Program-made: the position numbers and the translations under genes
The notes under the pieces: generated by a model
What the model was told of the DNA's origin: nothing
The model's input: the letters and a program-made list of their open reading frames with translations, nothing else
Database searches by the model: none
Shown here: positions 25,180 to 32,604 of the stretch, piece by piece
Layout of the letters: the number at the start of each line of letters is the position of its first letter
How positions within the stretch are numbered: position 1 is the stretch's first letter
Assembly: GCA_028285145.1 (NCBI GenBank)
Contig: JANQQC010000016.1
Coordinates: 1-64,000 of the forward strand
Origin: Hyphomonadaceae bacterium
Lineage (GTDB): Bacteria; Pseudomonadota; Alphaproteobacteria; Caulobacterales; Hyphomonadaceae
DNA: 64,000 bases
Reading direction: 5' to 3'

Positions 25180-25326
25180 GTCGCTGTAATCGCTCAATTC
25201 TGGCGCCATCCCGCCATGAATCATCTGTCATATAGGCTCAGGCTGTAACATCAGCTGCAGTGTCGGTGTCCCTGTTCTCTGTCCGGCAACTGGCCTACAC
25301 AAAGATGGTGATGGAGGGGTGAGGGT

Positions 25327-26595
25327 ATGGGTCCTGAAACCGAAGACGCGCGTCCTGCGACCGGCGAGGTCGATCTTGTGACGGTGATGGCTGAGCGGCC
25401 AACGTCCGAATTTGATGATGTGAAAGTGCAGGCCGACTATACGGCGCGCGCCATGCTGAGCTTCTATCGCTTCCGCCAACTTGGCGGCGGTCAGATGCCC
25501 AAGCATCGCCGGCGCAACAAGGATGATGCGAATGCTCAAGACGAAGTCCCGCCGCGCAATCGCAAGCTGAGGCTCGGCGAAGTCATAGGACGAGGCGTGC
25601 ATTACGTTTCTGACCACCCGGATGTACGCATTCTTCAGCTTTCCGTGATCGCCTTGCTGGTCCTGTTCGAGAGTGCGGCCAATGCTTACTTCTTCGCTCA
25701 GCAAAGCGAGTTCGGCATATCCGGCGGCCTGTTTCAGGCTGCGGCCGTGTCCATCGCCAACGTTGCGGTCAGCTTCTTCATTGTCGGCTATTGGGGGCTG
25801 CGCCACGCCAGTACGCCCGTCGATTGGACCTGGAAGCCATGGGACTGGGAAGCTCGGGATTATTACAAGCTATTCGGATTTTTTGCGATAATTGCCGGGG
25901 TCACCGTCGTGCTGCTCGTGAACCTCTCCGCGGCGCACTATCGCAACCTGATCGACCTCGCCGCGTCGCACGACTTGAATGAAGCCATCCAGGCTGTTCA
26001 ATCCAACGAGGCGCACCCACTGACTTATGTGGTGGATCGGGATTTCAAATGGCCGTGGGTGGACGATGCGACTTGCGAAGCCGTCCTAAACTCAGAGATC
26101 GGATTGTCGATTGGTGGAGCGGCGACCAACGCCATGTGCCGGCCGTTTGCGATCCACTCTCTCGACGCCATGGTGCTGTTCGCGCTGGGCCTCGCCATCT
26201 CTGCGTTGGCTGCTTTTGAAGGGCGTGGCGCGGATGCGAGCTTCCCGGGTTTGAGCGATGCGGCGAGAGAATTCGAGAAAGCCCGGGTGGATCTTCAGGA
26301 TGCGCTGGATGAGTACTACGAAGCCATTGAGGACTGGGTGCTTGAGACCAAGCGCCTAGCCGTCGGCGATCCGTTGGACGAGGATGAGAAGGGCGATGAG
26401 TCGCTCAAGGGCGAGGGGTATCAAAAGCTCTCGCGTGATGAAGAGTTGCGCTTGCGCACCCTCCTACGCCAGAAGGTGGAGCCGTATCGCGCGCTGCTCA
26501 CCTCCGACTCCGATATTCTGAGTGACGAGTTTGGTGTAGATCAAGATATCGTCGACCGTTTCGTCAGTCGTCTCCTTTCTTCCGGAGATAGGTAA
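25327..26595 (+). CDS. four-helix membrane protein, unknown family
   Basis: A 422-residue protein with a basic, charged N-terminal cytoplasmic part (about 1-95), membrane helices near 102-124, 135-157, 182-203 and 278-297, a loop between helices 3 and 4 with two Cys, and an acidic, helical C-terminal cytoplasmic tail (about 300-422) likely to form a coiled coil. No domain is recognised. The stop codon overlaps the next start by one base (TAATG), so it is translationally coupled to the vWA-like protein. A strong GGAGGGG site precedes ATG 25327. It could be the membrane base of a sensing or defence module, but that is speculation. Confidence 0.6.
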   Translation: MGPETEDARPATGEVDLVTVMAERPTSEFDDVKVQADYTARAMLSFYRFRQLGGGQMPKHRRRNKDDANAQDEVPPRNRKLRLGEVIGRGVHYVSDHPDVRILQLSVIALLVLFESAANAYFFAQQSEFGISGGLFQAAAVSIANVAVSFFIVGYWGLRHASTPVDWTWKPWDWEARDYYKLFGFFAIIAGVTVVLLVNLSAAHYRNLIDLAASHDLNEAIQAVQSNEAHPLTYVVDRDFKWPWVDDATCEAVLNSEIGLSIGGAATNAMCRPFAIHSLDAMVLFALGLAISALAAFEGRGADASFPGLSDAAREFEKARVDLQDALDEYYEAIEDWVLETKRLAVGDPLDEDEKGDESLKGEGYQKLSRDEELRLRTLLRQKVEPYRALLTSDSDILSDEFGVDQDIVDRFVSRLLSSGDR

Positions 26596-27410
26596 TGGGA
26601 CGGCGCAAGCGCAACCGGCGCAAGGCGAAGCAGCAGCGTCAGGCGGTGATCAACATCGTGTTGGTGGTCGCCGCGCTGGGGATCAGCGGGTGGCTCTTCT
26701 GGAGCCTGCAACCTGAACCTTATAATGAAGACACGCTGTGCGTTGTCTCCGAAACGCTGCCGCCGCACACCGCCGTCATCATCGACAAGACCGACGAGTA
26801 CAGCTCTGCCGAGGCCGGACTGATCGCGGCGGCCATCCGGCGCTCGCGGGACGAGCTGACCGTTGGCGAGCGCTTCACGCTTTTTGAGCTGGACGAGCGC
26901 GGCCAGTTCAATCCGCGTGGCGAGATGTCGATGTGCAATCCGGGGCGGGGGAATCAGGTGAACCCGCTCTTCCAGAATCCAAAGATGATCGAGGAGCGCT
27001 ACGCGCAGCTGTTCGAAGCGCCGATGGAGGCGATCCTCGATGATCTGGTGACGCCGAAGGAAGCGCCCGCCAGTCCGATCCTCGAAGCGCTGGCGCGTCT
27101 GGCGCAGACAGAGAATTTCTCAAACCGCGCGCCGGAGCGATCCATCCTGCTGGTCTCCGACATGTTGCAGAACTCGGACGTGTTCACGGCTTATGGCGGG
27201 GCCGGCGAAATGCCGGAGGGACTGCCGGAGCCACGCGATGCGGCGAAGATCATCATCGGACGGTTCGGCGATGGGCTGCGCGGCGCGCAGCTGGAAATCC
27301 GCCTGATCCCGCGCGAACGCTATGTCGATCTCCAGCGCGGCCCGCTGACGGCCTACTGGAATGAGATCTTTGCTGAGCTTGGCGTCGATGTCCGCTGGCG
27401 GGATCTCTAG
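26595..27410 (+). CDS. membrane-anchored vWA-like protein
   Basis: A 271-residue protein with a very basic N-terminus, one membrane helix (about 19-37) and a soluble domain with von Willebrand A-fold features. IIDKTDEYS (62-70) sits where the first metal-binding loop lies, SPILEALARLA (160-170) matches the middle Thr/Ser element, and ILLVSDML (184-191) the third Asp loop. The canonical DxSxS is changed to DKTDEYS. Similar DKTD proteins occur in accessory regions, but I know no assigned function. It is coupled to the four-helix membrane protein and overlaps the convergent methyltransferase gene by four bases. Confidence 0.58.
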   Translation: MGRRKRNRRKAKQQRQAVINIVLVVAALGISGWLFWSLQPEPYNEDTLCVVSETLPPHTAVIIDKTDEYSSAEAGLIAAAIRRSRDELTVGERFTLFELDERGQFNPRGEMSMCNPGRGNQVNPLFQNPKMIEERYAQLFEAPMEAILDDLVTPKEAPASPILEALARLAQTENFSNRAPERSILLVSDMLQNSDVFTAYGGAGEMPEGLPEPRDAAKIIIGRFGDGLRGAQLEIRLIPRERYVDLQRGPLTAYWNEIFAELGVDVRWRDL

Positions 27411-29914: not shown

Positions 29915-30888
29915 TGAGACGGTTTCGCCACGAAACATCCGAAGGCGAGATCGCCGGTATCGAATTTGGCGACCCGGCCAAGCCGTATTCGGCGCTTTGG
30001 CTGCATGCGACCGGATTCAATGCGATGACCTACCAGTCCATGCTGGCTCCGCTCGGCCTGCGCACACGCATTGCTGCGCTTGACCTGCGCGGACATGGGC
30101 GCACGACCCTGCCGGCAAAGCCCGGAGGGCTGGTTTCATGGACCCGTTACCGCAATGACGTGATCGCGTGGATCGAAAAGCATGCGCCAAACGGCGTCGT
30201 CCTCGCGGGGCACTCCATGGGCGGATGCGTGGCGCTGATGGTCGCGGGCAAGCGGCCCGACCTTGTGAAAGGCCTCGTACTGGCCGACCCGGTGATCCTG
30301 AATGCAAGGCACTATTTCTGGACGCATCTTTTTTCGCCGCTAATGCGCTTCATGATGCAGCGTGGACCCATGGCAAGCGGCGCGCGGAAGCGCCGCGCGC
30401 GTTACGCTTCGCTCGAAGAGGTGATGGAGCGCTACCAGAAGAAGCCTATCTTCAGTACGTGGCGGGAGCCGTTCCTGGCGGATTATGTGCTGGATGGGTT
30501 CGACAGGGTGGACGACAACCCTCATGACAGCGACGAGCAGATCTGGGAGTTGCTCTGCAAACCCAAATGGGAGGCGGCGACCTTCAGTGCACAGAGAAAC
30601 CGACCCTGGGGCGCGCTCTCCAAGGTTCGTAAGAAGAAGATCCCGATCACGATTCTTCGCGCGGCACGCGGCTCGGTGATGTCAGACAAGGCGGCTGAGC
30701 GTATGGCGCGGAAAAATCCGGCGTTGATCCTGAAGGAGAAGCGCGGGACCACCCATTTCCTGCCAATGGAAGCGCCTTATGAGGTGCGCGATTATATTGC
30801 CTCTTATCTGGCCAGATTGGTGGAGGGCGTCACCGCAGCCGACGAGGCTCCTATCCGTCGCAGGCTCGCTTCGACCGGCCGGCGCTAG
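29914..30888 (+). CDS. alpha/beta hydrolase
   Basis: A 324-residue cytoplasmic hydrolase with the nucleophile elbow GHSMGG (Ser about 98), the upstream oxyanion region LHATGFNAM, and a late HFLP for the catalytic His. An insertion rich in basic residues (about 150-220) forms a lid. It starts inside the stop of the DUF4197 gene (TAATG), so it is coupled to it. The substrate is unknown. Confidence 0.83.
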   Translation: MRRFRHETSEGEIAGIEFGDPAKPYSALWLHATGFNAMTYQSMLAPLGLRTRIAALDLRGHGRTTLPAKPGGLVSWTRYRNDVIAWIEKHAPNGVVLAGHSMGGCVALMVAGKRPDLVKGLVLADPVILNARHYFWTHLFSPLMRFMMQRGPMASGARKRRARYASLEEVMERYQKKPIFSTWREPFLADYVLDGFDRVDDNPHDSDEQIWELLCKPKWEAATFSAQRNRPWGALSKVRKKKIPITILRAARGSVMSDKAAERMARKNPALILKEKRGTTHFLPMEAPYEVRDYIASYLARLVEGVTAADEAPIRRRLASTGRR

Positions 30889-31214
30889 TGCTCGTCACCC
30901 GCACGGCTTGCCGGTGCCCCTTCGATCATGACGCTGGTAGCCCCTTCCGGGGCAGGGCCATCTTCGCCGCTTGAGACGAGGCGCACGACCGGCTCGCCAT
31001 TCACGAAGACGCTCGGGATGATTTCATAAGTGCGCGGATCGCAGGCCGAGACATCCGACAGGCGCAGCATGGGCCGGCCTTCTGCGAACACGTTGGAGCT
31101 GCCGGTAGCAATGCAGGGTGGGGGAGTTGCTGCACCTTCGGATGGGTCAGGCTCGGCCTGTGCGCCAAGGCTCGGGACCGTACAAAGGGCGAGGGCCGTC
31201 AGAAGAGTTTTCAT
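30885..31214 (-). CDS. exported PAAR-like protein
   Basis: A 109-residue protein with a signal peptide (cleavage near residue 20). The mature part has three similar segments: SSNVFAEGRPMLRLSDVS, PSVFVNGEPVVRL and TSVMIEGAPASRAGDEH. This repeated NV-x-x-G-x-P-x-R-x-x-D pattern is that of PAAR spike domains, although those are normally cytoplasmic and part of type VI secretion. No type VI genes are visible. A surface or periplasmic spike-like role is inferred only. It converges with, and overlaps by four bases, the alpha/beta hydrolase. Confidence 0.55.
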   Translation of the reverse strand: MKTLLTALALCTVPSLGAQAEPDPSEGAATPPPCIATGSSNVFAEGRPMLRLSDVSACDPRTYEIIPSVFVNGEPVVRLVSSGEDGPAPEGATSVMIEGAPASRAGDEH

Positions 31215-31255
31215 GACCTCGTCCTGCGGTCAGAATACGACATGGGTATGGCAGG

Positions 31256-32182
31256 CTAGATTGACAGGCCTGGCGGGGCGAGTTCGGCGAGTTCCGCCAT
31301 CTGCGGCTTCGGGGTCGGGATGACCTTGCGCTTGTCGAGATCGAAGGTCACAGCGACGGCTTCGCTTGTAACCCATGGCAGGCCTGTTTCCGGGTCCATT
31401 ACCCAGTGAACCAGCGAGTGCACCTTCTCGCCGGTCTCACCCAGGCTGGTGCGAACCTCGAACCGGTCACCCGCCCGGGGCCAGCGGCGATAGATGAGGC
31501 GATATTCCAGTACAGCCGCGCCCATGCGAATGCCGTCGCCCGCCGCTTCAGCGATGCTCTGACGCCATCCGTGAAGGAGGTTGGGGACGGAATCCGAGAT
31601 CCGCCCGATGAAGTACTCCGGGCGCATTCGGCCATTGAGGTCGCAATGCACGGGCTGCACAGCGCCCATGCCGATTGTGGGCACTCCGATCCTGTCGGCT
31701 TCTTCCACAGTTGCGTCGGTCAGCGGACGGTATGGGCCGTTCGGATCGACACTGCGCGGTGCCGTGGTGTCCGGAGGTGTCTCTATGAGATGTTCAAGCG
31801 CGACCCGGCTGCGGGAGGACCATGGAAACGGTTTACCGCTGCCAGCCTCTGCGTGAATGACCCGCGTGCGGAAAGCGGCGGCGGTGCTGCCGTCGCCATG
31901 CTTCATTTCCTGATAGATGACGGCATCGCTTTCGCCGACTTCCAGAACGAGCGCGGTCATTGTCAGGGGCCGGCCGGGGAGGGCCTCGCGCATGAAGCGG
32001 ATATGCTGATCGGCGGGAATAAGTGTGGAAGGTGTGTTCGCGCGGAAGGCGTGTGGCATGTCGATTTCGGCGGCTAAGACGGCCAGTCCTTCCATCGCCT
32101 TCTCGACATAGATGCGCACATTCATGTGCCCCATCTCGTCACAGTCCCATTGGTTCGCGATGCCCCGCCACACAGTGATCAT
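31256..32182 (-). CDS. double hot-dog thioesterase family protein
   Basis: A 308-residue protein. The first hot-dog unit begins ANQWDCDEMGHMNVRIY, a thioesterase-type active-site region; the second unit is in RMRPEYFIGRISDSVPNLL and RLIYRRWPRAGD. The size fits acyl-ACP or acyl-CoA thioesterases built from two tandem hot dogs. The start is coupled to the stop of the small exported protein by an ATGA overlap, making it the third gene of the Zur-like operon. Confidence 0.75.
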   Translation of the reverse strand: MITVWRGIANQWDCDEMGHMNVRIYVEKAMEGLAVLAAEIDMPHAFRANTPSTLIPADQHIRFMREALPGRPLTMTALVLEVGESDAVIYQEMKHGDGSTAAAFRTRVIHAEAGSGKPFPWSSRSRVALEHLIETPPDTTAPRSVDPNGPYRPLTDATVEEADRIGVPTIGMGAVQPVHCDLNGRMRPEYFIGRISDSVPNLLHGWRQSIAEAAGDGIRMGAAVLEYRLIYRRWPRAGDRFEVRTSLGETGEKVHSLVHWVMDPETGLPWVTSEAVAVTFDLDKRKVIPTPKPQMAELAELAPPGLSI

Positions 32183-32604
32183 TGGTCAGTCATCTCCGTG
32201 CAGGCGGGTTGGTCAAAGCGCGGCGTCAGGCGGGCTTCAGCCGCTTCCTCACCGTCATTGAAGAATTGCAGGCGCAGTTCGCCATTCTCGACCGCATAAA
32301 CAACCTGATCGCCAGAGCTTTCGCAGGCAGCCCCGCCGTCTGGCCCGGTGGTCAGCCGTTCATTGGCATCCACCCAACTCTCAAGCGAGGCTGGCATATG
32401 CCAGCCCGAGCAATTGCTTTCCGGGTACTCGACAATAAAGCCCGGCTCGCTCGGCCAGATGGCGATCTGCCGGGTGGTGCCGTCTTCCAGAACAGCGCAG
32501 CCCGCCCAGCGTGTTTCCTTTTCTGTGGTCATCAGGTCGATGGGGGCCGCAGAAACGGAACCAGCGCAGACGAGCGCTGCAAAGATCAGGAAGGTTTGCT
32601 TCAC
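32179..32604 (-). CDS. small exported protein, unknown function
   Basis: A 141-residue protein with a signal peptide (KQTFLIFAALVCAGSVSA). It contains five Cys in the mature part, probably forming disulfides, and an acidic C-terminus. The GTG start overlaps the Zur-like stop (GTGA), and its own stop overlaps the thioesterase start. No family is recognised. Location in the Zur-like operon hints at a link to metal or envelope stress, which is inference. Confidence 0.6.
   Translation of the reverse strand: MKQTFLIFAALVCAGSVSAAPIDLMTTEKETRWAGCAVLEDGTTRQIAIWPSEPGFIVEYPESNCSGWHMPASLESWVDANERLTTGPDGGAACESSGDQVVYAVENGELRLQFFNDGEEAAEARLTPRFDQPACTEMTDQ

Follow-up and report, generated by a model that had tools for sequence, protein, structure and literature searches.

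Two overlapping genes of an alphaproteobacterium of the family Hyphomonadaceae encode a membrane protein and a von Willebrand A (vWA)-like protein that a preliminary description could not assign to any named family. The question raised by the locus is whether the two proteins form one unit and, if so, what that unit does with or without further partners. The pair was analyzed in a stretch of 64,000 nucleotides (hereafter, the window), from which the analysis was extended to relatives in other genomes.

Two overlapping genes for a four-helix membrane protein and a vWA protein

The upstream gene (A) and the downstream gene (B) share a single base, 26595, within the sequence TAATG, in agreement with the one-base overlap originally reported. 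A Shine-Dalgarno-like GGAG lies 6-7 bases before the ATG of each gene, and codon-hexamer scores were strongly coding for both gene A (151) and gene B (107). The features of the pair are as follows.

25313..25319, + strand: Shine-Dalgarno-like GGAGGGG before gene A, read in the sequence
25327..26595, + strand: gene A, 422-aa polytopic membrane protein (ORF, AlphaFold2 model, conservation, no database match)
~25621-25698, 25717-25809, 25852-25968 and 26161-26226, + strand: predicted transmembrane (TM) helices of protein A (AlphaFold2 model)
26584..26588, + strand: Shine-Dalgarno-like GGAGA within the end of gene A, 6 bases before gene B, read in the sequence
26595..27410, + strand: gene B, 271-aa protein with a basic N-terminus, one TM helix and a vWA domain at aa 55-271 (ORF, AlphaFold2, Foldseek, VIA-align, profile match)
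26784..26792, + strand: first MIDAS-like motif, D64-x-T66 (DKTDEYS); D64 in 93/93 and S/T66 in 93/93 relatives
27072..27074, + strand: S160, at the MIDAS threonine position; S or T in 92/93 relatives
27159..27161, + strand: D189 of SDM, at the second MIDAS aspartate position; 93/93 relatives

The flanking genes (an ABC transporter, a methyltransferase and an enoyl-CoA hydratase) differ in function, and the pair does sit between unrelated genes as described. Gene B and the methyltransferase gene are convergent, and their 3' ends have four bases in common (27407-27410). No structured RNA or promoter was found in a search near the pair. Elsewhere in the window, the minus strand at 30885-31214 encodes a small protein whose start resembles a signal peptide and which has a putative PAAR-like repeat pattern.

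Protein B begins MGRRKRNRRKAKQQRQ and has one TM helix at approximately aa 17-35; it has a basic N-terminus, is membrane-anchored and carries the DKTDEYS, SPILEAL and LLVSDM motifs ascribed to it. The vWA reading had been drawn from motif order, and it was upheld by structure prediction, fold matches, profile comparison and conservation. The AlphaFold2 model of protein B alone gave a vWA fold with high confidence (mean pLDDT 90.7), and its top structural matches were solved vWA domains (Foldseek probability 1.00; VIA Z 12.5), with 156-178 residues aligned at an rmsd of 2.8-3.3; BatB was also among the fold matches. A profile built from 61 B relatives matched a collagen VI chain at 1e-6. Protein B had no PF00092 match in Pfam at E values up to 10 and was absent from the PF00092 matches of the genome. 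Judged by its predicted fold, protein B belongs to the vWA superfamily. Of the five MIDAS positions, four are kept (D64, S/T66, S/T160 and D189), and the complete MIDAS (DxSxS, T and D) is broken by loss of the fifth residue: the second Ser of DxSxS is E68 in the window and mostly P, E or L across the 93 B relatives. W255 was conserved in all 93.

C49 was found in 88 and C114 in 84 of the same 93 relatives, a conservation that fits a periplasmic disulfide. The vWA domain probably faces the periplasm, a placement based on the basic N-terminus of protein B and on the N-termini of its relatives, judged by eye to be lipobox-like or signal-peptide-like. One B relative, from Pararhodobacter (L028:6001-7275), carries an OmpA domain as an insertion in its vWA domain.

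Protein A alone gave an AlphaFold2 model of moderate confidence (pLDDT 78.6) with four TM helices at aa 99-124, 131-161, 176-214 and 279-300. Its N-terminus is charged (16 K/R and 16 D/E within 98 aa) and its tail is acidic (32 D/E vs 17 K/R), so that the model and the residue counts bear out the earlier picture of a four-helix protein with a charged N-terminus and an acidic C-terminal tail; both ends are probably cytoplasmic. E115, N119, N145, R206 and G288 were invariant in 52/52 relatives, H204 and N199 were kept in 49/52, and the loop between TM3 and TM4 contained two cysteines in only 16/52. Neither protein could be named from Pfam, NCBIfam, PADLOC or PHROGs, as the preliminary description had anticipated: Pfam and PADLOC gave no match to A or B at E values up to 10, and the one-off weak matches in NCBIfam and PHROGs were not meaningful. 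For protein A, isolated weak matches such as BrxE or arsenate reductase were discarded, PDB sequences gave no match, and the model matched no known fold with confidence (Foldseek best E 0.17; VIA best Z 8.2, inside the range of helical bundles). Gammaproteobacterial A-like proteins (20.5%) were suggestive only and were not accepted as homologues.

Co-inheritance of A and B

B relatives were present in 63 of 105 Hyphomonadaceae genomes and in 123 of 299 Caulobacterales genomes, and in broader samples they were found in 17/385 genomes from Alphaproteobacteria and 20/398 from the phylum. An A or A-like gene lay directly upstream of B on the same strand in 89 of 91 distinct loci, separated by gaps of -17 to 269 bases. 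The neighborhoods retrieved from related genomes keep the pair together far beyond chance. Distances among A proteins also correlated with those among B proteins (Mantel r 0.875 for 83 pairs; best of 1000 permutations 0.137). These data show that A and B are co-inherited. Among 83 loci with enough sequence, three arrangements were seen: A-B alone (61), A-B followed by two further genes, C and D (15), and an A-like gene with B (7). The A-like/B loci adjoin a glycine-zipper OmpA-like gene, which Pfam confirms in one locus. None of the phage records searched carries the pair, and a single weak match came from a viral contig; a phage or viral origin was rejected.

In the B tree, the window protein groups with other Hyphomonadaceae (SH-aLRT 95) next to Maricaulaceae (99), and all members of these groups are stand-alone pairs located among housekeeping genes. 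On its tree position, the window pair looks vertically inherited and not mobile. The deep branches of the tree are weak (60-89), and loss of C and D by the pair or their gain by the four-gene form would both fit.

A four-gene form with Zorya-like motor genes

The A-B-C-D arrangement was found in scattered other Alphaproteobacteria and on rhizobial plasmids, where four plasmid records add to the 15 loci. Protein C is MotA/ExbB/ZorA-like (a weak PF01618 match, ZorA2 at 1e-5 and a conserved FGVALxST core). Protein D is MotB/ZorB-like, with ZorB2 matches up to 6e-29 where an OmpA domain is present; D proteins with no recognizable OmpA domain were assigned by position and a common N-terminal motif. 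The nine strongest C matches in the 385 sampled Alphaproteobacteria were all in genomes with B (9/9), and a tenth, weaker match (G117) lies 377 bases from a contig end. We considered whether protein A is itself a divergent MotA/ZorA protein; profile comparison with C gave 15% probability through a coiled coil only, and the candidate was rejected. Neither A-B nor A-B-C-D turned up in a search of the literature, the coverage of which excludes most subscription journals and preprints.

About 12 of the 19 A-B-C-D loci have a thermonuclease domain, either fused to D or encoded nearby; A-B loci had none, save one weak distant match. In Rhizobium johnstonii plasmid pRL11 and in Microvirga ossetica, the annotation calls A, B and C hypothetical, and the thermonuclease comes after them. 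Several four-gene loci adjoin defense genes. In one genus (g142), a type III-A CRISPR operon encloses A-B-C-D, which is placed between the Cas6 and NE0113/Cas10 genes; in a second genome, a short Argonaute (pAgo) pair precedes A-B-C-D. On Sinorhizobium fredii plasmid pSfreNXT3b (L173:5389-12858), A-B-C-D, a thermonuclease and a PD-Lambda-1 (SNIPE) gene stand side by side. A CHAT-domain gene is located upstream of this plasmid cluster, and in the CRISPR operon (L091:6470-18999) a small 82-aa gene follows D. PADLOC gave many strong defense matches among 68 neighbors of A-B-C-D loci, concentrated in the few loci just named, whereas among 114 neighbors of A-B loci none was stronger than 1.8e-30 and most were to generic models, a difference to be read as a contrast and not as a measured enrichment, since the loci were not randomly drawn.

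The window copy differs from this form. No match to the C-type motor gene was found anywhere in its genome, C is present in only 3 of 105 genomes of its family, and no ZorA-like or ZorB-like motor gene lies beside the pair. The PADLOC Zorya models (ZorC-ZorD and ZorE) had no match in A, B or the window neighbors scanned. The four-gene relatives resemble Zorya types I and II (PMC11890865) in having MotA/ExbB/ZorA-like and MotB/ZorB-like proteins and often a nuclease; Zorya, however, has neither A nor B and uses ZorC-D or ZorE as effectors, and motor and nuclease are both absent from the window copy. Inner-membrane vWA families predicted to couple to TolQ-like motors have been described, one of which partners TolQ through a TM aspartate, and an SHLS motif has also been reported (PMC12204202). 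Protein B shares with them a TM-anchored vWA domain on the putative periplasmic side and, in some genomes, a link to a proton-motor family. Those proteins partner TolQ directly, whereas the constant partner of B is A, and the TM helix of B, VINIVLVVAALGISGWLFW, contains neither an acidic residue nor the SHLS motif. SNIPE, a single-gene GIY-YIG nuclease that faces the cytoplasm (PMC13190303), is likewise a membrane-located anti-phage nuclease, and its PD-Lambda-1 (DUF4041) gene adjoins one A-B-C-D-thermonuclease cluster; the proteins are unrelated, and the thermonucleases of the four-gene form, whether joined to D or separate, are probably periplasmic. The MoxR-vWA systems (NorQ/NorD and BatA/BatB) also place a vWA domain in a bacterial membrane-associated protein, but the present pair has no adjacent MoxR AAA+ ATPase and the partner of B is a four-TM protein. 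The pair lacks features that define Zorya and the TolQ-coupled vWA proteins and is unrelated to SNIPE.

The family to which the pair leads is widespread and has no Pfam, NCBIfam or PADLOC entry; in it, a membrane protein of no known fold is locked to a vWA domain that probably lies in the periplasm. Its four-gene form extends the Zorya-type motor idea by a vWA partner and often a nuclease. Should that form protect against phage, it would be a new defense system driven by a motor, and the stand-alone pair would show how the sensor part works with no motor.

Possible roles of the stand-alone pair

Our preferred reading, to which we give an even chance, is that A and B form an inner-membrane complex and that the window copy is a stand-alone envelope sensing or scaffold module with neither motor nor nuclease. 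In this complex, the only TM helix of protein B would anchor it, the basic end remaining cytoplasmic and the vWA domain lying on the periplasmic side, where a C49-C114 disulfide may close the domain. The vWA domain would probably bind an envelope ligand through a metal, and B may dock on A, most likely at the periplasmic TM3-TM4 loop where cysteines occur. Protein A could then use its conserved polar TM residues to relay the state of B to the cytoplasmic helices of A; signaling through A is a guess, because its model is moderate and matches no fold. In the relatives, the A-B core would be the front half of a four-gene system whose MotA/ZorA-like and MotB/ZorB-like proteins may act as a proton motor. 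A broader proposal, tentative and on balance doubtful, makes A-B the sensing core of a family of envelope systems not yet described. The four-gene form would combine a periplasmic vWA sensor with a Zorya-like proton motor and with a thermonuclease directed against envelope DNA, and the core alone would serve in Caulobacterales as a vertically inherited surveillance module.

The preliminary description had suggested a sensing, assembly or defense-like role. The defense part finds an echo in distant relatives, which belong to a Zorya-motor-like four-gene system that adjoins defense genes in several loci, but not in the window copy, for which it is unsupported given the housekeeping neighborhood, the lack of C in the genome and the vertical inheritance. 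The window pair might nevertheless be a working anti-phage module reduced from A-B-C-D, in which B senses phage at the envelope and A depolarizes the cell or blocks DNA entry. The type III-A CRISPR, pAgo and SNIPE genes adjoining the four-gene relatives and the thermonuclease they often carry would fit this, as would the invariant polar TM residues of A and the presence of an A-like/B pair with its OmpA gene near type I restriction-like genes (L105, by eye only). We consider it unlikely, as neighbors of stand-alone pairs include no strong defense match, phage records lack the pair, and inheritance appears vertical in a pair so widespread in Caulobacterales.

Where C and D are present they are MotA- and MotB-like, and A-B could instead be coupled, as force transducer or anchor, to a housekeeping motor (TolQR, ExbBD or MotAB) that replaces the missing C-D. 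The vWA families predicted to couple to TolQ-like motors (PMC12204202) lend this some plausibility, but the TM helix of B offers neither of the features reported for such coupling and no motor gene adjoins the pair, which leaves this explanation decidedly improbable. We regard as very improbable that B resembles NorD or BatA/BatB in being a vWA assembly factor that helps to build or metal-load a membrane complex including A: BatB is among its fold matches and many bacterial vWA proteins work with MoxR ATPases (PMC9976466), but the window has no MoxR ATPase beside the pair and B probably faces the periplasm.

The same genome carries a second, diverged A-B pair on contig 48 at approximately 29980-32376 (L049:7981-10377), with A of 530 aa and B of 239 aa as called. 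Dependence of the window-type pair on this second pair was rejected: both were present in 16/16 Hyphomonadaceae carriers, but most Maricaulaceae carriers have a single match.
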